Notes: generated by a model not told the origin, from the letters alone. DNA of 64,000 nt from Desulfocapsaceae bacterium (GCA_031292275.1 JARLHL010000017.1:1-64000), one strand, 5' to 3'; shown: positions 13,002 to 54,818, counted from the first letter of the stretch. Program-made: numbers and translations.

Positions 13002-14657
13002 ATGGAAATTCATTTTCTTTCAGAAACAGTCAGCATTCAGGACGGAGAGGAGACGCGGGATTTTGAAATCGCCCAACTCGTCCGGCCCGGTCAGCTCCTG
13101 CTCTCTGATACTGATCAGGATACAGGTCAGGGAAAAATATCTCTGAAAAGTCCGGTCCGTTTTCTGGCCGGTGCGAATTGCGAGATCGCTGAAGGCGGTC
13201 GCTCCCTTCTCTCCACGGCCACAGGATATCCGCATCTGGATCTGAAGGACGAAGAGGACGAGCAGACGGCCTCAGTCACCGTCACCCCGCTGATAAGCAT
13301 TTCCGAGGATGGGATGAAGGCATGTCTGACACTGCATCCGCCCGTGGGCGACGCCCCTGCCCTGCTGCTCGAAGACCTACTCCGCCTGCTCAGGGAAGCA
13401 GGAGTCGTATACGGGATTGACCACCGCTCCCTGGAAAAGACCAGCCAAAAGGTCACCGCCGAACGGCGGCCTGTTATACAGCAGGTCGTGGCCCGCGGCA
13501 TGCACCCCGTTGATGGTCTTGATGCCTACCTGCGCATGGAGATCGAGACAGGGACCCTGCCTGGAAAAATCAGGGGGGACGGGAGCATTGATTTCAGAGA
13601 GCGCCGGATGTTTGTCAGCGTGGAGGAGGGACAACTCATCGCCACAAAGATCAAAGAAACTGCCGGGATCCCAGGCAGGACTGTCCTTGGACAGGATATT
13701 TCCCAGAAGACAGGCAAAGACATAGTGGTCAGGGTAACCGAAGATGCCATCTACAACGAAACATCCAAAACAGTTCGAGCTGCCAAGGCCGGGGTGGTGT
13801 CCATCGTCAAAGACAGCATCATCAAGGTCTCGTCCAAACAAACAGTCTCCGGAGATGTCGATTTCAGCACCGGAAATATCTATTCGAAAAACGCCATTGA
13901 GGTGAGCGGTTCCGTCAAATCCGATTTTGTCATTGCGGTTCGCGGGGATGTATTCATCGGCGGCGATGTGCAGTCAGCCACCATCAGCTCCCATGGCAAT
14001 CTGGTGGTCAGGGGGGGAATTGTCGGATCTGCGTCAACCATCACGATCCGGGGCGATGCGGACATCAACTTCATCGAAAACGGAACCCTCCATGCCGGCG
14101 GCAATGTGATAATCAGAAAAAGTGCCTATTACAGCACCATTGTTGCCGATGGAAATATAGTTGGTGATCAGAAAACCAAGATCCTGGGCGGTATGCTGAT
14201 CTGCAGCGGCTCTCTGACAGTCGGTGACATCGGCTCAGGCAGCGCCCATCCCGCCACGATTACTGTGGGAACCGACGTGAAACGCTACCAGCATTATCAG
14301 GAACTGCACAGGAAGGTCATTGAACTGCAGGATGATACAGCCCACTGGCTGTATCGGTACGGAGCTGAGGCCGAGAAAACGACCAAGATGATTGATTGGG
14401 AAAAGGAACTGGCGAAAGCGCAGGAAGAACTCTCGCAGCTGAACCTCATCCCGGGTTCCCCAGTCAATTCAGCCTCCGATGATTTCACCATTGACGATGA
14501 TGCCGAGATCATCGTCTACGGCTGGATTTTTGCTGGGACCCGCTTACGCATCGGCAACTGCATCAGGACGATTACGATCAATCAGAACAAAAAGAAATAT
14601 GCAATCGATAAAATAATGAATGTAATAGCGGAAAGCCCCCTTGATCATCAGGCTTGA
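13002..14657 (+). CDS. FapA/DUF342 family protein (first copy)
   Basis: 551 residues. The arrangement follows the FapA family: an N-terminal variable part with a YGIDHRSL region (about 145), a middle segment with SIDFRERRMFVSVEEGQ, then a long run of repeated beta strands (about 270-440) of the type VSGSVKSDFVIAVRGDV that form a right-handed parallel helix, then a coiled-coil arm (about 435-490), and a final TRLRIGNCI strand. FapA-like proteins occur in flagellated bacteria and in many deltaproteobacteria and have been linked to polar localisation of flagellar regulators in Vibrio. No flagellar genes are near, so the role here is open. A paralogue sits at 49964-51664 with the same IDFRERR and QxIATKI core. 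It is followed 76 bases downstream by a CBS protein on the same strand. Confidence 0.85.
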   Translation: MEIHFLSETVSIQDGEETRDFEIAQLVRPGQLLLSDTDQDTGQGKISLKSPVRFLAGANCEIAEGGRSLLSTATGYPHLDLKDEEDEQTASVTVTPLISISEDGMKACLTLHPPVGDAPALLLEDLLRLLREAGVVYGIDHRSLEKTSQKVTAERRPVIQQVVARGMHPVDGLDAYLRMEIETGTLPGKIRGDGSIDFRERRMFVSVEEGQLIATKIKETAGIPGRTVLGQDISQKTGKDIVVRVTEDAIYNETSKTVRAAKAGVVSIVKDSIIKVSSKQTVSGDVDFSTGNIYSKNAIEVSGSVKSDFVIAVRGDVFIGGDVQSATISSHGNLVVRGGIVGSASTITIRGDADINFIENGTLHAGGNVIIRKSAYYSTIVADGNIVGDQKTKILGGMLICSGSLTVGDIGSGSAHPATITVGTDVKRYQHYQELHRKVIELQDDTAHWLYRYGAEAEKTTKMIDWEKELAKAQEELSQLNLIPGSPVNSASDDFTIDDDAEIIVYGWIFAGTRLRIGNCIRTITINQNKKKYAIDKIMNVIAESPLDHQA

Positions 14658-14733
14658 TTGGACTGTGGAGCAGGAAGCGGATGCAGACCATGCATTCTTC
14701 AACGGATAATCTCTACGGAGAGAAGACAATACC

Positions 14734-15381
14734 ATGTTTGTAAAGCTATGGATGAAGGAAAACCCGGTAACCGTCGGGCCGCTCCAGACTATCGCAGAAG
14801 CCATCGAAATTATGAGTCAATTCGGAATTCGAAGACTCCCGGTGCTGGACAACGACAAGACGCTCATCGGGATCATTACCCGCGAAGACATCATCAAGGC
14901 CATCCCCATGCAGACCGATCAGGACGATGCCGGCACTAACAGCCAGAGCCCGGTAGCCGCCCATATGACCTCCAGTCCCGTCACCACGGACCCCATGGAG
15001 CCTCTGGAGATGGCCGCCAATACCATGCGCAAGAATAAAATCGGCAGCCTGCCCGTGGTGAACGCCAACGGCACCCTCATCGGTATTATAACCGAGGCGG
15101 ATATCGGCCGGGCCCTCATGGATATCCTGGGAGTCGGAAAAGGGGGCGCCAGGATCGAGCTGCAGACAGGGAAAACAGCAAGAGAACTTTATGAGACCTT
15201 TGAGATATTTAAGGATTTTGATATGACCGTCAGTTCAGTTGCCGTCTATCCTGATTTCAGCGAGACCCAGCAGCTCCTGACCATTCGCGTCCAGGGAGAC
15301 GATCTGGACGCTATGCTTGATGCCCTCTGGAAATCAGGCTGCAAGGTTCATCGGATCATGATCAATGATGAGGACCGATAA
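14734..15381 (+). CDS. CBS-pair protein with ACT-like C-terminal domain (AcuB-like)
   Basis: 215 residues. Two CBS motifs are clear: residues ~1-60 (NPVTVGPLQTIAEAIEIM ... GIRRLPVLDNDKTLIGIIT) and ~75-130 (SSPVTTDPMEPLEMAANTM ... IGSLPVVNANGTLIGIIT). The remaining ~75 residues resemble an ACT-type regulatory fold (VSSVAVYPDFSETQQLLTI ... CKVHRIM). CBS pairs bind adenine nucleotides such as AMP, ATP or SAM. This arrangement is often annotated AcuB after the Bacillus acetoin gene, but no acetoin genes are here, so the actual role is unknown. It lies 76 bases behind the fapA-like gene and may be co-transcribed. Confidence 0.85.
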   Translation: MFVKLWMKENPVTVGPLQTIAEAIEIMSQFGIRRLPVLDNDKTLIGIITREDIIKAIPMQTDQDDAGTNSQSPVAAHMTSSPVTTDPMEPLEMAANTMRKNKIGSLPVVNANGTLIGIITEADIGRALMDILGVGKGGARIELQTGKTARELYETFEIFKDFDMTVSSVAVYPDFSETQQLLTIRVQGDDLDAMLDALWKSGCKVHRIMINDEDR

Positions 15382-15507: not shown

Positions 15508-16569
15508 TTACAGCCAAAGAAATCCGAAATAGACGGTTATAGGCAGTCCATCAATTTGAAATTCCTGAGGAAGCGGGGAGGATACGGCAATATCCACCTC
15601 TATTGTCTGTTTTGCCTCATAAAGGGAGTCTGAGAGTTCTGCGGGGATAGGCTTCGCCGTTTCCGGATCTGACGCGACATATCCGGTTAAAATTTTATGT
15701 CCTGGGAGCTTTAGCGTCACTTGCCTGCCTTTCTTGACATAATTAATGTTTGCAGGATCTACATAAGCCTTAAGGGAATAAGCCTTAAGGGAAGGAGTTT
15801 GGGAGACGACAAGCCTGGCGACACGCGCCCCCTTGGCAATACTCTGATTTTCCTCAACAAAAACAGAAGAGACCAAACCGGAAACCGGGCTTTTGAATTC
15901 AAGTTTCGAGCGTTTTTCTTCTACGAGTTCTATTTCGGTAGTTACTCGTGTAATGCTTGACTCAAGGACGGGATCGGCACCAGCCGCTCTTGTCGGTCCT
16001 GCATATTCGCGTCTTGCATGTAAAAGCTCAACTTGCGCCTGGTTATACTGACCTAGAGCAAGATCCAGTTCCGCAGCCGTTGCCGCTCCTTCTGAAAAAA
16101 GATGCCTCACCTCGCCGAGATGAACCAAGCGGCGATCGCACACTGCCTGGGCCATTTTGATATTCTCTTTGAGGAGATCATCGGGCGGCTTTTCCCGCTT
16201 CTTTTGCATCAGCTCTTCGAGCTGAGATCGCAAAATCGAGGCTTGCCCCTCCAGAGCCGGATCCGAAATTGTCACGACCACGAAACCGGCCGTTATGGTA
16301 TCGCCAGGTTTTACATTTATTTTTGCAATCGACCCAGTTTCCGGGCAATTCAGGTCGACTTTCTGCAAGGAGACGACTCCGGGGGCCGAAATAAAAATGG
16401 AGGACAGGATTATCTTGATGAGAAAAAAAAGCAAAGGGCTCGCTGTTATTATAACCACAGCATACCACTTCCACGCGGCCAGGGCTCTCTTGCCTGACGC
16501 GTAAGGGACTTTCATCCCTCCCTCATACGAAGGATTCTCTTTTTTTGTACCGTCGAAATTTATCTTCAC
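15508..16569 (-). CDS. HlyD-type periplasmic adaptor (membrane fusion protein)
   Basis: About 353 residues. The TolC/glycosidase stop overlaps a TTG at 16575; a GTG at 16569 with AGGG eight bases upstream is an equally good start, and I use that. After a short cytoplasmic tail there is one membrane helix (about 34-60), then a half biotinyl-lipoyl domain (GSIAKINVKPGDTITAG), a helical hairpin (about 105-195), the second lipoyl half (FKSPVSGLVSSVFVEENQ) and a beta-barrel domain (QVTLKLPGHKILTGYV). HlyD-type adaptors bridge an inner-membrane partner to a TolC-type tube. With a GT2 synthase and a TolC-like gene in the same operon, the likely cargo is a polysaccharide. The hairpin is short, so the adaptor may not span the whole periplasm. 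A 15-base direct repeat encodes SLKAYSLKAY. Confidence 0.85.
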   Translation of the reverse strand: MKINFDGTKKENPSYEGGMKVPYASGKRALAAWKWYAVVIITASPLLFFLIKIILSSIFISAPGVVSLQKVDLNCPETGSIAKINVKPGDTITAGFVVVTISDPALEGQASILRSQLEELMQKKREKPPDDLLKENIKMAQAVCDRRLVHLGEVRHLFSEGAATAAELDLALGQYNQAQVELLHARREYAGPTRAAGADPVLESSITRVTTEIELVEEKRSKLEFKSPVSGLVSSVFVEENQSIAKGARVARLVVSQTPSLKAYSLKAYVDPANINYVKKGRQVTLKLPGHKILTGYVASDPETAKPIPAELSDSLYEAKQTIEVDIAVSSPLPQEFQIDGLPITVYFGFLWL

Positions 16570-16571
16570 GT

Positions 16572-18740
16572 TCAATGCCCTTTATGCAGGTCTTCCCAGG
16601 ATTGAATGATTATCGAAGTGAAATTATCACAATGTATTGAGTCCTGAAGCTGTTCCATATTCTGCAGGAAGACGGTCTTACCCAGAGTAAAATAGCTTTC
16701 CTCCCGGGGGGCCGAACGTTCAAAACTTTGGGATACCGAGATTGGAAGCAAAGGGTATTGATTCATTATCGCCTCTGCTCTTCGCGACACCACCTGCAAG
16801 TCGGATGAGTATATCATGAGCGCGACCTCAGCAATCCCCAGTTTTTCAAGCTCACAGCCAAAACAGGTGCCAGTGAGCTTTTCATCAAAATATCGAGGAT
16901 GAACTGAAATCCCCAGGGGCCAGCTGCTTTTGGCCAGGACCGCTTTCAGGGTATCTAGAAGATATCTGGTCATTATTTTATGGTCATCGAGTTTCTTTAA
17001 CTGATCCGGCTCAATGTCGAGATGAAGGCCATGAAATTCAAGCCCACGCAACGAATTGATTATATCAAGCAGTTCCCCTCTTCTTTCAGGTAAAATCCAG
17101 GAAGGATCGCCGAGAAGCACTTCAACCAGGATTCCGTTGCCACTTGCAGTTTCGATCAGTCGCGCAATCGACGCCTTGAGTGCTCCCGTGCGAATCTGTT
17201 CTATCTGAGGCCCGTCAAAAGAGACGAGTATCCTGTCAATTCGATTATCTTTCAGACTTTTGAAGAACTTCCCCAGGTCCTTATCCAGGATATCCCGGCT
17301 ATTCCAAAGATAAACGCCGAAGCCGCCGACTCTCCTTTCCGGCGCCGGCGCCGCTTTCAGGCCTGCCGCGTTTACTTCTTCAAATTCTTTCGCGTGCGGA
17401 GAAAACAGGGTGGAAGAAATCCACCTTTTCCGCATATCATATCCCGGCAGATTCTCGGAGGTAAAGTTCCTGACTTCAGGCTGGTCAGCGTGCTCTTCCG
17501 CAACCATAAGGAGGTCTGCACATGCCTTAAGGGCCGAGGCCTCCGCGTCAAGGGCTTCAATTGCTCCACTGAACAGGGCATATCGCGCCTGGGTGTATTT
17601 TTCAAAAATATCACCCTGAAGATATTTAAGCCTCAATCTCGCCTCACGGAGGCTTTCGTAGGCCGCCCCAAGACGTCGATCCGCAAAGGCAAGACTCTCA
17701 AGCGAGGCCTGATATGTAGAGCGGAATCCAGAAAAATCATTCAGGATCTCGCTTCTGATCTTTTGTAGAGACAACTGGGATTTTTTCCTCTCCAGCTGTG
17801 CCGATTCCTCTGCAGCACGGTTTGAGGCAATAAAATCAAGCGGAGCCTTTACATTAAAGGTGATTGTGGCTCCGTTGCCAAATTGGCCGGGACTATCTTT
17901 TTCAGAAGCATAGGCAAGGTCAATACTTGACTCAAAACCGGACCATTTTGTTTTATTCAAGATTTCATTATTCTTTGCAACAATCCTCTCCAGTATTTCC
18001 AACTCGGGATTATAAACCCCGGGCGACTCCTCCATCCTCCCGGCGTTCATCTCGGGACTGGGGAGACTCAGGCTCTCCCGGGAGGCCTTATCAGGAGTCA
18101 AACCGGTCAGCCCGCTTATTCTCCTGGTGGCCTTCTCCATGCTCATTACAGAATTGGCCGCCTCCCGTCTTGCCCGATCAAAAAAACTCATAAATTCCTG
18201 AAAATCCGCATTCAGGAGCATGCCCGAATGAATCCTCTCTTCCAGAACGGACGATATATAATCCTCATCTTTCAAAAATGCCTGAGCCAGCTCAAGCTTT
18301 CTTGCGGAAAACCAGAATTCTATGTATTCCTTTCTGAGTGACGCCAGTGCAGTCTTTTTATAAATTTCCAGATTATACTTTTTGTCAAGGATGGCCCTTT
18401 CACTTTTCAATATACCCGCCTGTTCCTGCCATCTTGAACCCAAAACCGGCATTGTCAGGGCCACCCGGTTAAAGAGTTTTTCGTAATAGATCATGTCCGG
18501 AGATGTCAGGGACACCGGTTCGTGGCTCCATCCATATCCCACGCCGCCGGAAATTTTCATCCCGCTGTCCGCTCTTGCCTTTTCTTTCACCAGCACACCA
18601 GCCGCAATTTCCAGACCGAGCATCTGCGCATCGTCCGAAAGGTTGATACGTTTTTCAAGCTCTGCGAGGCTTGCTGACAAACAGCGACCGGTAGGAATGA
18701 GCACCAGGACCAATAAGAAATATGAGAGTATTTTTTTCAC
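16572..18740 (-). CDS. TolC-family outer-membrane protein fused to a glycosidase-like TIM barrel
   Basis: 722 residues from a GTG at 18740, three bases past the glycosyltransferase stop. Residues 1-24 are a signal peptide. Residues ~25-420 are a TolC-type outer-membrane factor: long helices with two repeats, and strand-forming segments at ~60-98 (MKISGGVGYGW) and ~270-305 (ATITFNVKAPLDF) that would build the beta barrel. After a linker, residues ~470-722 look like a (beta/alpha)8 glycoside-hydrolase-like domain: GGFGVYLWN, then RILVSFDG, VEVLLGDPSWIL, GLHLDIEPD (571-579, the D-x-E-type strand used by GH18-like and related barrels), WPLGISVHPRY, ALMIYSSD and IIIQSWED. I know of no common protein with this fusion. 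Most likely it forms an export channel carrying its own polymer-processing enzyme at the periplasmic or surface side. Substrate and activity are not visible from sequence. Confidence 0.8.
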   Translation of the reverse strand: MKKILSYFLLVLVLIPTGRCLSASLAELEKRINLSDDAQMLGLEIAAGVLVKEKARADSGMKISGGVGYGWSHEPVSLTSPDMIYYEKLFNRVALTMPVLGSRWQEQAGILKSERAILDKKYNLEIYKKTALASLRKEYIEFWFSARKLELAQAFLKDEDYISSVLEERIHSGMLLNADFQEFMSFFDRARREAANSVMSMEKATRRISGLTGLTPDKASRESLSLPSPEMNAGRMEESPGVYNPELEILERIVAKNNEILNKTKWSGFESSIDLAYASEKDSPGQFGNGATITFNVKAPLDFIASNRAAEESAQLERKKSQLSLQKIRSEILNDFSGFRSTYQASLESLAFADRRLGAAYESLREARLRLKYLQGDIFEKYTQARYALFSGAIEALDAEASALKACADLLMVAEEHADQPEVRNFTSENLPGYDMRKRWISSTLFSPHAKEFEEVNAAGLKAAPAPERRVGGFGVYLWNSRDILDKDLGKFFKSLKDNRIDRILVSFDGPQIEQIRTGALKASIARLIETASGNGILVEVLLGDPSWILPERRGELLDIINSLRGLEFHGLHLDIEPDQLKKLDDHKIMTRYLLDTLKAVLAKSSWPLGISVHPRYFDEKLTGTCFGCELEKLGIAEVALMIYSSDLQVVSRRAEAIMNQYPLLPISVSQSFERSAPREESYFTLGKTVFLQNMEQLQDSIHCDNFTSIIIQSWEDLHKGH

Positions 18741-18741
18741 G

Positions 18742-20073
18742 TTAAAATTTTGATTTTTTCAAGACCCACCATGGAGCCATACTTGAGTCCAAATGCGATC
18801 GCGTTATGAATTCCCACATTATTGCAAACCCATTTACCAATCTGATAAAGAACAGATAAAGCCCAAAAATGGGGAGTACCGGCAAAAGTTTCAGATCCTC
18901 CTTCGCTCTTTCCGATACCAGAAGGACAAAGGCAAAATAGAAGACTGTGCTCACAAAAAGGTAAAACACATAAACTATTGAAAATATAAATATTATCTTA
19001 TGTATACTATACACAAAACATATATATGACATATATACTATGATGAGCAGTGGCATAAAAACCTGAAACATGAGCCCTGTCCAGAGTTGGAGTATATAAT
19101 TCCCAAGTCCCATGAGCCGGATATCGAACGTCTTTGAATGCTTCCTAAAATACAGATAATACAAGTCTCCGTCCCATCGCAGCCTCTGCCTGAACAGTCC
19201 CAATACTGTCTCCGGAACCTCTGTGTGGCCAATCGCCTCAGGATCAAAGACAATTTTCAATGCCGGATATCTCCCGAAATAATTCTTTATCCGCAGGGTT
19301 ATATCGAGGTCTTCAGCTGTCCCTGAACTCCAGCCGGAGATTATCTCCAGAAATGATTTTCGGAATATTCCGAAGGCACCCGAGATATTGTTGACCACAT
19401 TAAATTCACTGAGCCCCGTCTTCGAGGCGTGAATGGACATCATGTATTCGAGGGCCTGAATTCTGGTCAGCAGATTCTTCCTGGCATTCATGACCCTGAG
19501 TGCCCCTGCGACACCCACAACGTTTTTATCACTGAAGTGCCTTGCCGCTTTTGCCACCATATCGTTGTCAAAGGAGGTATCCCCGTCCAGGGCCATTACT
19601 ATTTCTCCCGAGGCAACCGCAAGGCCGGCATTCAGAGATGACACCCTCCCTCCTCTCTGCCATTTCGGCAGCACAACTACCCGTCTGTTGGGCATGGAAC
19701 GTGCGTATGCGGCCATTTTCATGACCGCGTTGTATGTCTCAATATTGGCGGAAGCCCCGTCGACCACGGGTATGATCTCGATAAAACCGCTATACAGCTG
19801 CTCAGCGAGACATCGGACAGTAGCAGCCGCCCCCTGACCTTCGGAATAACAGGTTACGATGCATGAGACCGCGGGGGAAACCGGGCTGCTATATGGCCTG
19901 CTTCCAATCTTTCTCAGATAGTATTTTGAAATACCCGCGAGTATAAAGGCATACACAGGTATTTCCAGAAATATCACAAAGGGTATAAAGGTAACGATGA
20001 GACTCCAGACCTGCGGCGCAAATGGATCTCTCAAGAAGATTATGATATATTTTAAAATCATGCTGCCAGTCAT
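18742..20073 (-). CDS. Processive family-2 glycosyltransferase (polysaccharide synthase)
   Basis: 443 residues, GGAGG seven bases before the ATG. Two N-terminal membrane segments (about 5-50) precede a GT-A domain with all catalytic marks of processive inverting synthases: VVDGAS (Asp105), ALDGDT (D163-x-D165), TAED (254-255, base) and RQRLRW (295-300, the Q/RxxRW motif). Three to four membrane helices follow (about 320-420). This is the layout of PgaC, HasA and BcsA-type enzymes that make a beta-linked polymer and push it through the inner membrane. There is no PilZ domain or BcsB/PgaD partner. The neighbouring TolC-like and HlyD-like genes would complete the envelope path. Sugar specificity cannot be read; PgaC-like (beta-1,6-GlcNAc) is one option. 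Confidence 0.88.
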   Translation of the reverse strand: MTGSMILKYIIIFLRDPFAPQVWSLIVTFIPFVIFLEIPVYAFILAGISKYYLRKIGSRPYSSPVSPAVSCIVTCYSEGQGAAATVRCLAEQLYSGFIEIIPVVDGASANIETYNAVMKMAAYARSMPNRRVVVLPKWQRGGRVSSLNAGLAVASGEIVMALDGDTSFDNDMVAKAARHFSDKNVVGVAGALRVMNARKNLLTRIQALEYMMSIHASKTGLSEFNVVNNISGAFGIFRKSFLEIISGWSSGTAEDLDITLRIKNYFGRYPALKIVFDPEAIGHTEVPETVLGLFRQRLRWDGDLYYLYFRKHSKTFDIRLMGLGNYILQLWTGLMFQVFMPLLIIVYMSYICFVYSIHKIIFIFSIVYVFYLFVSTVFYFAFVLLVSERAKEDLKLLPVLPIFGLYLFFIRLVNGFAIMWEFITRSHLDSSMAPWWVLKKSKF

Positions 20074-20122
20074 AGAAAATCCTCCATTCCTGGTCGATAC
20101 ATTCCAACAGCAGTTGTTTGAA

Positions 20123-21511
20123 TTATTCTTCCATGAAAACTGTCAATCTGGCAATGAGGAGTTCAGCTGTTTCCGCATTATTGGAGTCCTCGGGAGCCGT
20201 AAAGGTAATGCTCTTGAGTTCCAGCATCGAACCGTCCTCCTGCTTCGTCATATCCTGAAGCGTCATTATTTTTTTTGCAAGGACGGCACATCCTGCCGAG
20301 GAGGTCTTGGGGAGAACGAGCCACAGATTATGTTCCGAGGTCCTTGTCGTAATATCCGTGGTTCTGATCAACTCCCGGAGACGGCGGGCAAATGTATCGA
20401 CCAGTGTTGATACTTTGTGCTTTCCGAGCCCGGCCGTAAGCTCAATGGCATTCTTTATGCTGATCCCTATGATGCTGAAGGAGTCTTCGGGATAGCGTTT
20501 GCAGAGCAGCAGCAGCCAGTCGAGCATCACCATAAAATGGCGGGGATTGACATAGTTCAGATTGTCCAGAAGAGCATAGATATCATCAATGCCGCCGAGC
20601 TTTGCAGAGTATTTGCCTTTGGCCGTCAGCCGGAAGGTGGTGATGACCTGCTGGATCAGATCCTCGGGATTGTTTTTCCAGTCGCAGTGTGCACAGTGGG
20701 CAATTATCTGAGGGTCTACAAAGGACTGGCTGCATTCGAGACAGGAATAATTTTCCATCGGCCTGTCATAGTCTGAACCAATGTGTCTGAGTTTTGTTCG
20801 GCAATTAGGACATTGCATGCTCCCTTCGGTCAGGAATTTATCCTGCGGAGCGACATGCCCGCAGGTAAAGCAGTGAATAAAGGGCACCCTGAGGATATTA
20901 AGACTCTGACATGCAGGGCAGATATCGACATAGTTCAGATGACTCCATTCGCATTTCTGGCAAAGCCGTATCCTGTCAACCAACCGTTCAGGGGCAAGAA
21001 GACCGCGTTCGACGAGTCCCGTTATCCATCTGAATATTTCTTGGGGGGGATCCCCCAGTGCTTCGACCAGTGGAAAGAGATAAACCTGCGGAGAAAGCGG
21101 ACTTTTATACGGCAGAAGGTCGGCATTTCTTGAGTATAGAAAGGCAAGAAGAGTGTAGTCCTGACTCTCCATCATGTCTTTGTGATTCATATCCCGGACG
21201 CGACCGTTGATCTCTTCCGCCTTTTGAACCAAGTCGGGATACGTCGTAAAAATACCGTCATGGACTGAATCGAAATACGCTGGGAGCGCGGTCTTCAGAA
21301 ATATCGGGGTCAGACAGAGTCTGGGATTCCGCCTGATTCCTTTTATTCTTTCTTCGGTTTGTCTTTCCGTGTCACCCCCGACAATGAGGGCGTCCGGCCT
21401 CTCCTGCAGTCGGTTGAACAGATTTTCTTCCGAAACTGCAGAAACAGAAAGGCCCGGTCCCGGATGTTCATCAATATCAGCATTGTCTTGAGCAATATAG
21501 AGGATATTCAT
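20123..21511 (-). CDS. TackOD1-type zinc-ribbon regulator with receiver-like N-terminus and degenerate GGDEF-like C-terminus
   Basis: 462 residues; first gene of the operon, 49 bases before the glycosyltransferase. Residues 1-100 resemble a receiver fold (ILYIAQD, ALIVGGD, LTPIFLK). Residues ~120-280 are a multi-ribbon zinc module with six CxxC pairs (Cys 184/187, 198/201, 214/217, 234/237, 257/260, 273/276) and the conserved LRHIGSDYDRP segment that marks the TackOD1 domain. Residues ~305-455 follow the secondary-structure pattern of a GGDEF domain (FSIIGISIKN ... RRLRELIRTTDI ... LVLPKTSSAGC), but the signature position reads TSEHN, so no cyclase activity is expected. It probably senses or transmits a signal that controls the polymer synthase. 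The domain was named from archaeal output proteins; its mechanism is, as far as I know, unknown. Confidence 0.75.
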   Translation of the reverse strand: MNILYIAQDNADIDEHPGPGLSVSAVSEENLFNRLQERPDALIVGGDTERQTEERIKGIRRNPRLCLTPIFLKTALPAYFDSVHDGIFTTYPDLVQKAEEINGRVRDMNHKDMMESQDYTLLAFLYSRNADLLPYKSPLSPQVYLFPLVEALGDPPQEIFRWITGLVERGLLAPERLVDRIRLCQKCEWSHLNYVDICPACQSLNILRVPFIHCFTCGHVAPQDKFLTEGSMQCPNCRTKLRHIGSDYDRPMENYSCLECSQSFVDPQIIAHCAHCDWKNNPEDLIQQVITTFRLTAKGKYSAKLGGIDDIYALLDNLNYVNPRHFMVMLDWLLLLCKRYPEDSFSIIGISIKNAIELTAGLGKHKVSTLVDTFARRLRELIRTTDITTRTSEHNLWLVLPKTSSAGCAVLAKKIMTLQDMTKQEDGSMLELKSITFTAPEDSNNAETAELLIARLTVFMEE

Positions 21512-22703
21512 GCACTCTACACCTTCTGACCAAAGGAGTTTCTTTTACAACCCGGTTCTAACCTGCACTGCAGATTCAATCCCTGTGGAAAGGTCAACCA
21601 GGACCTCAAGGTCGCCGAAGAGGCACCTCTCAGCTGCTTGGACGCACTCTTCGATTTTCAACTTCGCCTAGAAAAAACGCCACCAAAGGCATGCAGGATA
21701 TCATTTCTGTCTCAGAAATGACATAAATGATATAAATACACAGAAGAGTCTTATTTTACAATAATTTTACCAAAAAAACGACAAAATACAAAAAGACCAG
21801 AGCCGGGCCGAACAATAACTCAAAGAAGTGACTCCATTTTTTGTATCATGCTTGAAACAGGCCTGCAGGGAATTCGATTTACACAGAGGTCTTTTCACAA
21901 GATGCGGATTCTCGCCAAACGAGCACCGTTATCTTTCCGCATTTTTCAGGTTCTTTCCCGCAGTCAAGACCAAGAAGGGACAGTTCCGTTACCTGAAATA
22001 TCAAGGATATTTTCCCCACGTACTAAAAATTACAATGAGCAGCACAGGCCTGTATCGAGCCGCTGGGCGTGTACAAAAAAACCCACTAACTCTCGCGAAT
22101 TAGTGGGTATATGTAAAACGATCTTCAAACAAAGATCATAGTATGTACTTAACAGCAGAACTGATATTCAGTTATATGAATGCTCTTTACACTATTATTG
22201 AAACAATTGCAAATATTATTTTATCTCTGGCATCAATTCCGCCATTATCGCCTTTTCTGTAATTTTGAATAATATATTATTATTTCATATGTATAATAAA
22301 CTTTATATCACCTATTTCACACTTCCAAGCCAGCTTTTTCTTATCGAGAAAAAGCTCCACATAACGGGTAGGACGTCTTCAATACATTCCTCAAGCGGAA
22401 GACTTCTATCCTCTCCGGGGCGGCAATGCGACTTCTGCGCTTTTGACAAGCTTCCATGCAAAAATCAGGAGCGGAGGATAGCCCTTGCCAAACCTTCTGC
22501 CTTCGTTCCAGGGATTGTGCTTACTGCCACGCAGCCAACCAAAAATGGGCCAGAAATGCGCCGAGGCCAGGAGCATTTTCAGCGGCACCATTTTCCCATC
22601 GTTTTTCGTGAATAATGGAAAAATGTTGTCTTTTTGAAAAGAATATTTTCAGTAAAAGATGATTACTTTTCGCATATCATCCTTTACTGAGGAGGGTATC
22701 CGT
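21512..22703. other. Long AT-rich intergenic region
   Basis: Nearly 1.2 kb without a credible gene. AT-rich patches at 21680-21790 and 22130-22330 could hold promoters for the minus-strand exopolysaccharide unit; the region before 21511 has no clear -10/-35 that I would defend. The only distinct structure is a terminator-like hairpin at 22075-22108. Open frames at 21828-22141 look like chance. Decayed mobile or tRNA-linked sequence is possible. Confidence 0.4.
22075..22108 (-). terminator. Intrinsic terminator hairpin, orphan copy
   Basis: On the minus strand the sequence forms a 9-bp stem (22081-22089 with 22100-22108, arm ACCCACTAA) followed at once by seven T's. Its flank TTTTACATATA and its stem closely match the hairpin downstream of tRNA-Met at 24651-24683. 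No minus-strand gene ends just upstream of it (osmC ends 600 bases away), so it looks like a duplicate left behind. Confidence 0.7.
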
Positions 22704-24725: not shown

Positions 24726-24802
24726 TGGTGGCGATGCAGGGAATTGAACCCCGGACACTACGGATATGAGCCGTATGCTCTAACCATCTGAGCTACATCG
24801 CC
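24726..24802 (-). tRNA. tRNA-Met (anticodon CAT)
   Basis: Full cloverleaf on the minus strand: acceptor stem GGCGATG with CATCGCC, D-arm GCTCAGATGGTTAGAGC, anticodon stem TACGG/CCGTA with loop CTCATAT giving CAT, T-loop GGTTCAATTCC, discriminator A and an encoded CCA (24726-24728). The first pair is G-C, so it is not an initiator tRNA. Overall sequence fits elongator tRNA-Met; a lysidine-modified tRNA-Ile2 also has CAT but usually differs in the acceptor and anticodon stems. Confidence 0.95.
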
Positions 24803-41344: not shown

Positions 41345-42841
41345 CTACACTTCAACCCGATTCCTGCCGTTCGACTTTGCCTTGTACAGCGCATGATCGC
41401 TTTTAAAAATGAATGATTCCCGCATTATCTCGGCATCGTTCATATCAGAGCTGACGAGTCCTATACTGATCGTCACCGAAATCAGCTTATCATCGTACTG
41501 TACCGTCTGCTGTTCCACCCCCCGACGCAGGCGCTGAGCAAGGACCCGGGCGCTGGCAAGACCGGTTTCCGGCAGAATAATCGCAAACTCTTCCCCGCCA
41601 TACCGGGCGACGATATCGCTGCGCCTGACCAGCTTGACCAAGGTCTTGCTCGTTTCCCTGAGCACCAGATCGCCCACGGGATGGCCATAGGTATCATTGA
41701 CCTTTTTGAAATGGTCAATATCGAGAATCATCAGGGACAGAGGATGGCCGTACCGTTTCGAATTCTGAATCTGTGTCTCCAAAACCTCATAAAAATATCT
41801 ATGATTATAGAGGCTTGTCAGACCATCGCGCAGAGCCAGTTCCCGCAGCTTGTCATTGGAGCGCTTCAGTTCGATGGCCAGTCGTTCTGCGTTCTGCTTG
41901 GCCTGGGTCAACTCCAGAACGATCTGTTCATAGGAATAGTTCAGTCGCCCCAACTCTTCGTTTGCCTCCTGCATTATTACTGAAAAGGGCTTCATATTGC
42001 CGGGAGGTATGGAAAAGTATTCCATAATTTCAAGCGACTTAACCCCAATCTTGTCGATAATATCATCTATCCGTTCATGCTCGATCCCATAGAGGGCGTT
42101 AAGGCTCTGATGCACTTCGATTGATTTTCTGTTACACTGCGTACCATGGTACATTGAGGAAATCTTGTCGGCCAGACCGAGGATCAGGGCCGTTTTCCGG
42201 TACGGCTCTGCGGGCTCCCCGGCATGATGCCAGAGGATGGACTGGCAGATCGCCGGGGGAAGCTTCCAAGTCGTCAGGAGGTGGCAGCCGACTTCGGCAT
42301 GATCGAAGCCGAATTTTTCCTTTTCGGCCTCGCAGGTACTCTTGCCGCTGATCCGCTTGCCGTCGACCACCTCCGTGAAGGAGGTCATGTCGGCAAGGAA
42401 CAGGGTCAGTACACCGATGTCCTGCAGCAGAGACGACACGAAGATGTCGCGATCCTTCAGGCCGGTGTTCTCGGCCAGTACTTCCGCCGCCACCGCGGCG
42501 CAGACAGCCCGACGCCAGAACAGGTCGAAATTGAAGCTCCCCTGCGGGGCACCCTGAAAACCCTCTATGATCACAAAGGAAAGGGCTATATTCTTCAGGG
42601 CCTGCGTGCCGATGAGAATCGTTGCCTGGGCAAGTGTATCAACGCTGCCGGGCAGACGGTATAAGGAAGAGTTGGCAAGTTTTAATATTCGAGCGGTGAG
42701 AGCCGGATCAGTCTTAATGATTTCAGCAAGTTCATCCAAGGACTCATCGTCCCGGCGGACCGCATCCAGAATTTTCAGGGCAATCGCCGGCGGTGAGGGT
42801 AATTTAATTTTCTCATCGATAAAATTCTGTATACTGGACAT
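41345..42841 (-). CDS. HDOD-GGDEF diguanylate cyclase
   Basis: 498 residues from ATG 42841, chosen for CGGAGAG upstream and because the HDOD family starts here (the open frame extends to 42910). Residues ~1-200 are an HDOD domain: LPSPPAIALKILDAV, TDPALTARILKLANSSLY and HHAGEPAEPYRK. A coiled coil (about 285-325) leads to a GGDEF domain with LMILDIDHFKKVNDTYGH and RYGGEEFAIILP; GGEEF is active-type. It should make cyclic di-GMP in response to a signal sensed through the HDOD part. No RxxD inhibitory site is apparent at the usual place before GGEEF. Confidence 0.93.
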   Translation of the reverse strand: MSSIQNFIDEKIKLPSPPAIALKILDAVRRDDESLDELAEIIKTDPALTARILKLANSSLYRLPGSVDTLAQATILIGTQALKNIALSFVIIEGFQGAPQGSFNFDLFWRRAVCAAVAAEVLAENTGLKDRDIFVSSLLQDIGVLTLFLADMTSFTEVVDGKRISGKSTCEAEKEKFGFDHAEVGCHLLTTWKLPPAICQSILWHHAGEPAEPYRKTALILGLADKISSMYHGTQCNRKSIEVHQSLNALYGIEHERIDDIIDKIGVKSLEIMEYFSIPPGNMKPFSVIMQEANEELGRLNYSYEQIVLELTQAKQNAERLAIELKRSNDKLRELALRDGLTSLYNHRYFYEVLETQIQNSKRYGHPLSLMILDIDHFKKVNDTYGHPVGDLVLRETSKTLVKLVRRSDIVARYGGEEFAIILPETGLASARVLAQRLRRGVEQQTVQYDDKLISVTISIGLVSSDMNDAEIMRESFIFKSDHALYKAKSNGRNRVEV

Positions 42842-52436: not shown

Positions 52437-54818
52437 TCACTCCTCTGCGACCACGACGCAGTTCCGGCCCCGGCGCTTGGCCTGGTAGAGGGCCGTATCG
52501 GCGGCCTTCAGGATCTGGCTGGCCGTATCGCCATGCTGGTCGAAGGCCGCCAGGCCGATGGAAGTAGTGACCTGATTCAGCTCCTTGCCGCCATACTGAA
52601 TCCTGATGGCCGCAATCTGCCTGCGGATCTCCTCCGCCCTGATTTGGGCCACGTCAAGGCTCATCCCCGGCAGGATCAGAAAAAATTCCTCGCCGCCGTA
52701 CCGGCAGGCCACATCCTCGGCCCGGCCGCAGTTGAGAAGGACCTTCCCCATCTCCCGCAACAGCTCATCGCCAGCCTCATGGCCATAGGTATCGTTAAAT
52801 TGCTTGAAAAAATCAATATCCAGCATCATGACCGCCACGGTGAAATTGGTCCGTCTGGCCTGGCTGAGCTCACGCTCAAGGGACTCCTCCATGAAGCGGC
52901 GGTTGAAAAGCCCGGTGAGAGGATCGCGAATTGACTGCATCCGCAGGGTCTCGCGCAGTTCGTAATTGGCCAGGGCCAGAGAAATATGATCCGTTACCGC
53001 CACGGCCAGACGTTCTTTGGAGTCCATGATCCGCCTGGAGATTTTGGAGGGAATCAGGGGATTCAACGGTCGTATCTGGAGATGGAACAGCCCCTTGATG
53101 CCGCCATCGGTGATCAGCGGCACACAGAGATATCCTCCCTTGGCGAGCGCGCCCACATGCCTGCAAGCAACCCCGCCGCCGGAATCACCGACGGAATAGA
53201 GTTTCCCCTGGCGCAGGGCCCAGCAATCGTGAAAGACGAACGTCTGCTCACCCGTGACATTCTCTCCCCACTCCAGGGCGCTTTCCAGGAAGGCTCTATC
53301 CTTATTCAAAAGATACAGCCTCCCCGAATCCGCCGGAAACAGCTTTCGGACACACCGGCCGACCACATAATAAATCTCATCGACGTTCTGACAGACCTGA
53401 AGCAGATCGAGCATCTCGTTCAACTGCGAGATCTCGCGGCTGCGCTGCTCCAGTTCCTCGTTGGATCGCCGCAGTTCCTCCTCCGCCTGTTTTCGCTCGG
53501 TAATGTCGAGAAAGGAGACCACGCTCTTCCGGGTCTCCGGGATAGCGGCAATGGTGACGCAGACATGCTTGAGCTGGCCGCAGACACTGGCAAAGCAGGC
53601 CTCGAAATTCCTCGGCGCGCCGTCCGGACCGCCCTGCTGCAGGGAGTGAAACTGTCCCATTGACTGCAGTGTTTCGTCCTTGAAGAACTCGGTCCAGTTC
53701 TTCTTCCCCTCAATCTCCTCCCGTAGACAGCAGGAGAGCTTGACGAATTCGGCATTGGCAAGGGAGATGGTGGAATCCGCCTCGATGATCACCATCGCTG
53801 TACCGGTATTTTCGAAGATGGTCTGATAGAGGTTCTGCGATGCCTCCAAGGCCGTCCAGGTCTGCCGCCGTTCCTCGACCTCCTCCTGAAGCCTTTTGTT
53901 GGTGGCCTCGAGGTCTCTCATGGTCTGCTTGGTATCCACCAGATCCCTGGCCACGCAGACACTGCCCAGGATACTGCCCCCCCGATCCTTCAGCATCGTC
54001 AGCGAGACCTCGAAGGGCAAAAGCGCGCCATTCTTGTGGCGCATCGCAATTTCATATTTTCGCACGAACCCTTCCGACCTCAGGCAGGCCAGCATTTCCT
54101 GCAGTTTTCCCTGGTCGGCATAGAGCCCGAAGGCACTCCTCCCCCGCAGTTCCTCAAAGGAATACCCATAGAGCTGTTCCGCCATCCGGTTCCATTTGAC
54201 GAATCGGCCCTTGGCATCAACGATTCCAATGGCATCCGGCGAATTATCGAGGATATTTTCCAGATAATCGCGAATCCGGCTGAATTCCTCATTACTCTGC
54301 CACAGTTTGGTAATGTCGACACCGGCCAGAAAATTGGCGGTCTTCCCCTGGGGGCCGGGAATCATCCGCCCCGACCAGACCACCAGGAAGATGCGGCCAT
54401 CCTTGCCGATCAGGCCCGTCTTTCGCTTCACCGCCTGCCGCCCCATGGCCATCTGCTCAAGCATACCGGTCAGGACAGCCAGGTCGCCTGCCGGGACATA
54501 GGCGGCGAGCGGCGTGCCCGCCATCTCACCGGAAGAATACTGCAAGGCATGGCCGACAGCCCTGTTCACCTTCAGGATCCGGCCGTCGGGCGCGGAGATT
54601 ACGAGGAAGAAGGGAGAGTCCTCAAACAGCACCTTGATCAACTCACCGTTATCATGACAGGTGAGGCCACCAAGGGCATCCAGTCCGACTGTCAGGTCCG
54701 CAACCGAATTGAGGGCATGGTCTTTTTTCATATTTTTTTTAAAAACTCCATCTTCAAAACCGGAAAACCACATCTCTTTACGAGAATAGTGCGATAATGC
54801 CGCAGTAAAATCAAGCAT
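52437..54818 (-). CDS. Diguanylate cyclase with three PAS domains and a GAF-like domain
   Basis: About 793 residues from ATG 54818; the frame extends to a TTG at 54860 and the start is uncertain. In order: PAS-1 (about 50-165, DSPFFLVISAPDGRILKVN), PAS-2 (about 185-295, NSPDAIGIVDAKGRFVKWN ... GYSFEEL), PAS-3 (about 325-445, ENTGTAMVIIEADSTISLAN), a coiled coil, a GAF-like part (about 470-620), and GGDEF (about 625-793) with LDIDFFKQFNDTYGHEAGD and RYGGEEFFLILP, so an active-type site. No transmembrane helix is seen, so it is cytoplasmic and senses an internal signal. Four signal-input units on one cyclase is rich but not unusual in deltaproteobacteria. Confidence 0.9.
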   Translation of the reverse strand: MLDFTAALSHYSRKEMWFSGFEDGVFKKNMKKDHALNSVADLTVGLDALGGLTCHDNGELIKVLFEDSPFFLVISAPDGRILKVNRAVGHALQYSSGEMAGTPLAAYVPAGDLAVLTGMLEQMAMGRQAVKRKTGLIGKDGRIFLVVWSGRMIPGPQGKTANFLAGVDITKLWQSNEEFSRIRDYLENILDNSPDAIGIVDAKGRFVKWNRMAEQLYGYSFEELRGRSAFGLYADQGKLQEMLACLRSEGFVRKYEIAMRHKNGALLPFEVSLTMLKDRGGSILGSVCVARDLVDTKQTMRDLEATNKRLQEEVEERRQTWTALEASQNLYQTIFENTGTAMVIIEADSTISLANAEFVKLSCCLREEIEGKKNWTEFFKDETLQSMGQFHSLQQGGPDGAPRNFEACFASVCGQLKHVCVTIAAIPETRKSVVSFLDITERKQAEEELRRSNEELEQRSREISQLNEMLDLLQVCQNVDEIYYVVGRCVRKLFPADSGRLYLLNKDRAFLESALEWGENVTGEQTFVFHDCWALRQGKLYSVGDSGGGVACRHVGALAKGGYLCVPLITDGGIKGLFHLQIRPLNPLIPSKISRRIMDSKERLAVAVTDHISLALANYELRETLRMQSIRDPLTGLFNRRFMEESLERELSQARRTNFTVAVMMLDIDFFKQFNDTYGHEAGDELLREMGKVLLNCGRAEDVACRYGGEEFFLILPGMSLDVAQIRAEEIRRQIAAIRIQYGGKELNQVTTSIGLAAFDQHGDTASQILKAADTALYQAKRRGRNCVVVAEE

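Follow-up and report, generated by a model that had tools for sequence, protein, structure and literature searches.

A widely conserved four-gene unit pairing a TackOD1 regulator with a GT2 synthase, a TolC protein fused to a glycosidase-like barrel and an HlyD adaptor: a probable c-di-GMP-controlled variant of synthase-dependent exopolysaccharide systems

In the Pel system a degenerate GGDEF domain with an intact I-site, carried by the receptor PelD together with membrane helices and a GAF domain, controls a soluble GT4 synthase (PelF), while export runs through the TPR-porin PelB, the hydrolase/deacetylase PelA acts as the periplasmic glycosidase and PelX has an accessory role. PelD needs the trio R367/D370/R402 to bind c-di-GMP (PMC8461298), and PelD from B. 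cereus binds it by R363/D366/R395 (PMC7112168). The PNAG system (PgaABCD) likewise holds a glycosidase domain in its export part, and periplasmic trimming of the chain is shared by BcsZ, AlgL, PgaB and PelA. Two further systems combine a GT2 with an HlyD-like protein. In Sinorhizobium and Rhizobium, BgsA (a GT2 activated by c-di-GMP, which it binds by its own C-terminal domain) and the HlyD-like BgsB are encoded by a bicistronic operon and produce a mixed-linkage glucan (PMC9495663), and in cyanobacteria a GT2/HlyD-like/TolC-like conduit for cellulose (XcsAB-TolC) has been proposed, as yet unvalidated and encoded by unlinked genes (PMC12430437). The TackOD1 domain was first described as an output domain of archaeal response regulators, with cysteines placed as in an insert of PriA, and its function was called obscure (PMC5847659).

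The window analysed here (64,000 nucleotides from a Desulfocapsaceae bacterium with a draft genome of 4.14 Mb) carries four consecutive minus-strand ORFs, which encode a TackOD1/pseudo-GGDEF regulator (20123..21511, 462 aa), a GT2 (18742..20073, 443 aa), a TolC protein with a fused glycosidase-like barrel (TolC-GH; 16572..18740, 722 aa) and an HlyD adaptor. The last of these was called as an ORF at 15508-16575 (355 aa); since its homologues begin with MKIxF, an alignment of 33 of them moves the start from TTG 16575 to GTG 16569 (gene 15508..16569), and the gaps therefore measure 49, 1 and 2 bases. The four genes and their parts were thus correctly described in the original prediction, the third gap (given there as about zero) being corrected to 2 bases. 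As was also stated there, and as ORF calls and Pfam confirm, the locus lacks a BcsB, PgaD or TPR/beta-barrel gene. By the same means PelB, PelC, PelE, PelF and PelG are absent from the operon, the PgaA porin and PgaB are lacking, and no inner-membrane transporter besides the GT2 is found among the four genes; GHL13, the PgaB domain, has no match in the own genome. Where AlgKE, BcsC, PgaA and PelB provide a TPR scaffold and a single-chain beta-barrel porin, the four genes hold neither and encode a TolC-type trimer protein instead. Because of this absence we set the unit apart from the usual synthase-dependent systems, and report it as a variant of them that is not a member of Pel, Pga or Bcs. 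Our literature search found no description of this gene combination, although subscription papers and preprints lay outside it, so that 'undescribed' is provisional.

Upstream of the operon, between it and an OsmC gene, lies a strong terminator-like hairpin (22081..22108, minus strand; a 12-pair stem followed by T6, by consensus match only). A tRNA at 24729-24802 is all that Rfam matches in the window; the search thus returned no element upstream of the operon and hence no known c-di-GMP riboswitch. Promoter-like sites near the operon occur at about the frequency expected from shuffled sequence. Convergent with the operon are a FapA-like beta-solenoid gene (13002-14657, plus strand) and a two-CBS gene (14734-15381, plus strand), and two additional strong GGDEF domains in the window (41357-41836 and 52461-52931, minus strand) are possible local sources of c-di-GMP.

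When GTDB contigs were scanned with a TackOD1 alignment of five closer rows, 482 pattern matches were obtained, 447 of which encode relatives; the best 80 of these 447 were kept as loci and re-annotated by means of profiles of the window proteins, and neighbourhoods were counted in the 58 loci whose regulator has 6 kb or more on either side. The GT2 adjoins the regulator in 55 of these 58, most of which hold all four genes, in two common orders (regulator-GT2-TolC/GH-HlyD and TolC/GH-HlyD-regulator-GT2). The order of the window recurs unchanged in three loci (L031, L032 and L033) of the same family but of other genera, and conservation of gene order beyond the strain, on which the original prediction depended, extends to other families and phyla: hosts belong to Desulfobacterota, Synergistota, Planctomycetota, Pseudomonadota and Acidobacteriota, besides MAGs labelled Bacillota, and their record titles name Desulfobacterota-type organisms, Synergistota, Planctomycetota, Nitrosomonas, many Pseudomonas, Legionellales, Pantoea, Vreelandella, an acidobacterium and the said MAGs. 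Such conservation excludes chance, and the four-gene unit is real, widely conserved and probably functional. The distance matrices of the proteins are also correlated (Spearman 0.53-0.73; permutations of the TACK-GT2 pair gave at most 0.13), with a contribution from species phylogeny. Within the host family the operon is patchy, the TackOD1 cut-off being exceeded in 6 of 93 genomes, and a copy resides on an Aeromonas plasmid; together these observations suggest that the operon has spread by horizontal transfer.

Pfam, an AlphaFold2 model (mean pLDDT 92.5) and Foldseek divide the regulator (20123..21511, minus strand) into an N-terminal receiver-like alpha/beta domain (about residues 1-105), TackOD1 (Pfam 1e-63) and a C-terminal degenerate GGDEF domain (a weak Pfam match, 2.2e-5), and Foldseek matches the whole model to GGDEF proteins, full-length PleD and WspR among them. 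Within TackOD1 (residues 112-295; 20627..21178, minus strand), nine cysteines (184, 198, 201, 217, 234, 237, 257, 260 and 276) are invariant in 69 homologues, and Cys187 (67/69), Cys273 (68/69) and His213 (63/69) are nearly so. This domain and its cysteine pattern are shared with archaeal TackOD1 (PF18551), which differs in being an output domain, whereas the window regulator is bacterial, linked to a GT2 and equipped with a pseudo-GGDEF domain; in two haloarchaeal plasmids no glycosyltransferase is annotated near the TackOD1 genes.

The degenerate GGDEF domain itself (about residues 313-430; 20222..20575, minus strand) has lost its signature, positions 392-396 being unconserved and none of the 69 homologues having a GGDEF-like motif there. 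Its predicted c-di-GMP I-site is nevertheless kept: R383 and D386 (R383-T-T-D386; 20354..20365, minus strand) are invariant in the 69 homologues and fall, in an HMM alignment to solved GGDEF chains, on the RxxD I-site of diguanylate cyclases. The third predicted residue, K414 (20270..20272, minus strand), is R in 64 and K in 4 of the 69, and aligns with the arginine of the AERI motif in solved cyclases, which is R390 in PleD. All three residues, if Lys is accepted at the third, are retained in 68/69 homologues and belong to the best-conserved sites of the domain. Caution is due in that RxxD is common in active GGDEF domains too, with 8 of about 10 in the own genome (a small control in which some rows are noise or duplicates); its meaning in the regulator lies in the fact that it outlasts the loss of the active site. 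Pfam PelD_GGDEF (PF16963) matches 9 of the 69 homologues (best 1.9e-5). The regulator, described at first simply as degenerate and GGDEF-like, is thus, by its residue conservation, probably a PelD-like c-di-GMP receptor, though a soluble one: the membrane helices and GAF domain of PelD are missing, with the receiver-like and TackOD1 domains in their place. The own genome, with 23 GGDEF and 22 PilZ matches, plausibly uses c-di-GMP.

The input to TackOD1 is not the same throughout. In alphaproteobacterial minimal loci the RxxD I-site is gone, and c-di-GMP is therefore not universal to TackOD1-GT2 units; on a Roseibium plasmid (L151:3098-7696) a response regulator of REC-TackOD1 type precedes GT2, HlyD-like and Hpt genes, in what looks like a phosphorelay version. 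From these two cases it follows that the constant element is TackOD1 beside a GT2, whereas the input domain varies. Two loci from hosts of the same order as the window (L038 and L043) have a TackOD1/pseudo-GGDEF gene without a nearby GT2 and, by eye, beside Sir2-like genes (L043 also beside a CYTH-like one), pointing to a different use of the domain. The TackOD1 protein might instead act chiefly by binding DNA or RNA to regulate the operon, without partnering the GT2 post-translationally. Nucleic acid is a frequent ligand of zinc ribbons, and the archaeal description (an output domain with PriA-insert-like cysteines; PMC5847659) would accord with such a role; we consider it improbable, however, given the adjacency of TackOD1 and GT2 in 55/58 well-flanked loci, its persistence in the minimal loci and in the REC-TackOD1 version, and the resemblance of the pseudo-GGDEF domain to PelD, a post-translational activator.

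The GT2 (18742..20073, minus strand; Pfam 1.6e-16) is a membrane glycosyltransferase of processive, PgaC/IcaA-like type that lacks a PilZ domain, and is the most conserved of the unit's proteins (mean column identity 51%). The complete set of catalytic motifs claimed for it is borne out by 39 homologues, in which D105, D163xD165, D255 and Q296-R297-x-R299-W300 (QRLRW, the QxxRW motif, residues 296-300; 19174..19188, minus strand) are invariant. Among NCBIfam models the nearest is PgaC_IcaA (3.3e-40; 138 bits against a cut-off of 422), which is the best family match in 39/39 homologues, with NodC in second place, and the window protein scores far under the curated cut-offs for both. Searched against solved structures, the GT2 profile matched the family-2 transferase 6yv7 best, followed by hyaluronan, chondroitin and cellulose synthases. 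The unit differs from Pel in having a GT2 where Pel has a GT4, and is closest to PNAG in its synthase, from which its receptor is separate. A synthase with a GT2 and an HlyD-like partner is common ground with BgsA/BgsB, whose operon lacks TackOD1, TolC and a glycosidase.

The fusion protein joins a TolC/OprM-type outer-membrane factor (17391..18683, minus strand) to a C-terminal (beta/alpha)8 glycosidase-like barrel (residues 468-722; 16572..17339, minus strand). The former is recognized by Pfam OEP in the window protein (7.3e-10) and in 51/51 homologues, and in the AlphaFold2 model (mean pLDDT 89.8) two beta-hairpins and long helices make up a full TolC protomer, which is followed by a weak linker (pLDDT <50 at 450-462) and by eight strands alternating with helices. 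Foldseek returned TolC, CusC, ST50 and OprJ-type proteins as best matches (about 1e-14 to 1e-12), its top 42 all being TolC-family channels such as TolC, CusC and OprM; a PDB search with the single sequence gave nothing useful, and a profile of 51 rows matched TolC/OprJ. Both the tube, with its coiled coil, and the fused barrel foreseen in the original prediction are therefore present in a confident structural model. The barrel has no convincing Pfam family in the 51 members, and Glyco_hydro_18 is not among the Pfam matches listed for them. Profile comparison (with a GH18 reference of six sequences only) favoured GH18 (P=1.6e-4) over GHL13 (0.019), GH114 (0.14) and GH5 (0.074), and the last three (GHL13 being the PgaB type) were rejected as worse fits. 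In the alignment HLDIEP of the barrel falls on DIDWEYP of GH18 and MIY on MAY; the last D and the E of the DxxDxDxE motif and the MxY are kept. A clan GH-A (4/7) reading, suggested by E674 on strand 7, was discarded as this residue is not conserved in divergent members, and we prefer to regard the barrel as distantly GH18-like.

At the strand ends lie D575 and E577 (strand 4), M642 and Y644 (strand 6), and Q713 and W715 (strand 8), of which D575-x-E577 (17010..17018, minus strand) is the candidate catalytic pair, invariant in 51/51 homologues and kept in more divergent members. It could be argued that the barrel is a dead, scaffold-like domain which guides the chain without cutting it, as the second Asp of the GH18 motif is replaced by His in 49/51 and as the closest non-TolC fold in the PDB (the first barrel match in Foldseek, E 3.5e-4) is the entry of OsXIP, a GH18-fold inhibitor without activity. 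We regard this as unlikely, since the conservation of D575 and E577, together with that of M642 (invariant) and of Y644, E674, H614 and R616 (each in 50/51), exceeds what a scaffold would need. The barrel is probably periplasmic, since TolC proteins have their C-terminus facing the periplasm and since the free version of the barrel found in Pseudomonas starts with a hydrophobic stretch resembling a signal peptide. Trimming would accordingly occur in the periplasm, as it does with BcsZ, AlgL, PgaB and PelA, and not at the exit of the tube.

The HlyD adaptor (Pfam HlyD_3 3e-10, and Biotin_lipoyl) has one N-terminal membrane helix and lipoyl halves with a helical hairpin. Together with the TolC part it sets the unit apart from Pel, which exports through PelB, and recalls XcsAB-TolC, in which a GT2, an HlyD-like and a TolC-like protein are also proposed to form one conduit; the cyanobacterial precedent invoked for this tripartite path thus exists as a proposal (PMC12430437). 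XcsA differs in its PilZ or PCR domain, XcsC is a separate endoglucanase, TackOD1 is missing and the parts are scattered in the model species. The gene for the tube and its enzyme is the dispensable part of the unit, given that some Pseudomonas keep the barrel only and that minimal loci keep only TackOD1-GT2-HlyD. Of 11 well-flanked loci tabulated as 'GH', eight (all Pseudomonas) are truly without a TolC part, and the other three (L035, L036 and L039) encode long divergent proteins that probably include it; in some Pseudomonas the barrel is secreted as a protein of its own, and a sugar epimerase often comes after it. The minimal form occurs on plasmids of Plesiomonas, Rhodobacteraceae, Phyllobacterium and Aminobacter, with no adjoining TolC/GH.

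Since the TolC part is missing in some loci, the conduit may come from elsewhere or may not be the route. This absence also fits an explanation in which the GT2 acts on a short glycan or glycolipid, either making or modifying it, HlyD and TolC (classic pump parts) export that product or an unrelated small molecule, and TackOD1 senses a signal other than c-di-GMP; GT2s of similar size do make short products, and NodC, the second-best NCBIfam match, yields oligosaccharides. We hold this to be doubtful, as the unit contains no RND, ABC or MFS partner, a processive PgaC/IcaA synthase is the best family in all 39 homologues, QxxRW is invariant and a glycosidase-like barrel travels with the genes.

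Several copies of the unit have neighbours that may bear on the polymer. An epimerase gene directly follows HlyD in five Pseudomonas loci (at 4 bases in four, at 102 bases in L104); that of L119 (14394-15341, plus strand; equivalents in L107, L118, L120, L124 and L104), the one epimerase compared, is 68% identical to the solved 6wj9/6wjb, which we presume to be PelX, and in this respect some Pseudomonas copies resemble Pel. The epimerase function of PelX has been described (PMC9135694). PgnE, a paralogue of PelX, is a candidate orthologue of the operon epimerases, and may first have served the operon. A galE gene follows HlyD on a Rhodobacteraceae plasmid. In a Legionellales locus without TolC-GH (L092), a GH16 gene with an EIDWE motif (13791-14702, plus strand) overlaps the HlyD stop by 4 bases, and the polymer may therefore differ between lineages. 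Directly 3' of one operon copy (L064:6669-10798, plus strand) are a PilZ-HlyD fusion (486 aa, Alg44-like) and then a GT2 of 890 aa that ends in a pectate-lyase/epimerase-like stretch; this GT2 may be a second synthase, carrying its own domain for modifying the polymer.

Taken together, we judge it reasonably probable (about 0.6) that the unit is a c-di-GMP-controlled, synthase-dependent exopolysaccharide machine with a tripartite-pump conduit, the biochemical steps of which we infer as follows. Judging by residue conservation, c-di-GMP would bind the pseudo-GGDEF I-site, upon which the TackOD1 protein would relay the signal to the adjacent PilZ-less GT2 (by gene adjacency and the parallel with PelD). 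The GT2 would then polymerise and extrude a sugar chain, which may be a polymer of beta-linked N-acetylhexosamine; this product is our favoured guess from sequence, and only a possible one, because PgaC is the nearest synthase and the barrel is GH18-like. By their protein families, HlyD would connect the GT2 with a TolC-type trimer, giving the chain a single tube as its way out, and the three barrels on the periplasmic side of the trimer, as fold and conserved DxE suggest, would cut stray or over-long chain. More tentatively, TackOD1 might be a general adaptor that passes signals (c-di-GMP through the pseudo-GGDEF domain, phosphorylation through REC) to GT2 synthases, and the unit a distinct class of export machine in which a TolC trimer brings its own periplasmic glycosidase of a new family.

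If the proposed reading is true, a widespread matrix-polysaccharide system would have gone unnamed in tractable Pseudomonas, Stutzerimonas, Pantoea and Nitratidesulfovibrio and on Aeromonas plasmids, since annotation splits it into a 'diguanylate cyclase', a 'glycosyltransferase', a 'TolC family protein' and an 'HlyD family protein'. The GT2-HlyD-TolC route suggested for cyanobacteria could furthermore be tested on genes linked in one operon, the barrel would provide a candidate new glycoside hydrolase family, and the orphan TackOD1 domain would gain a function.
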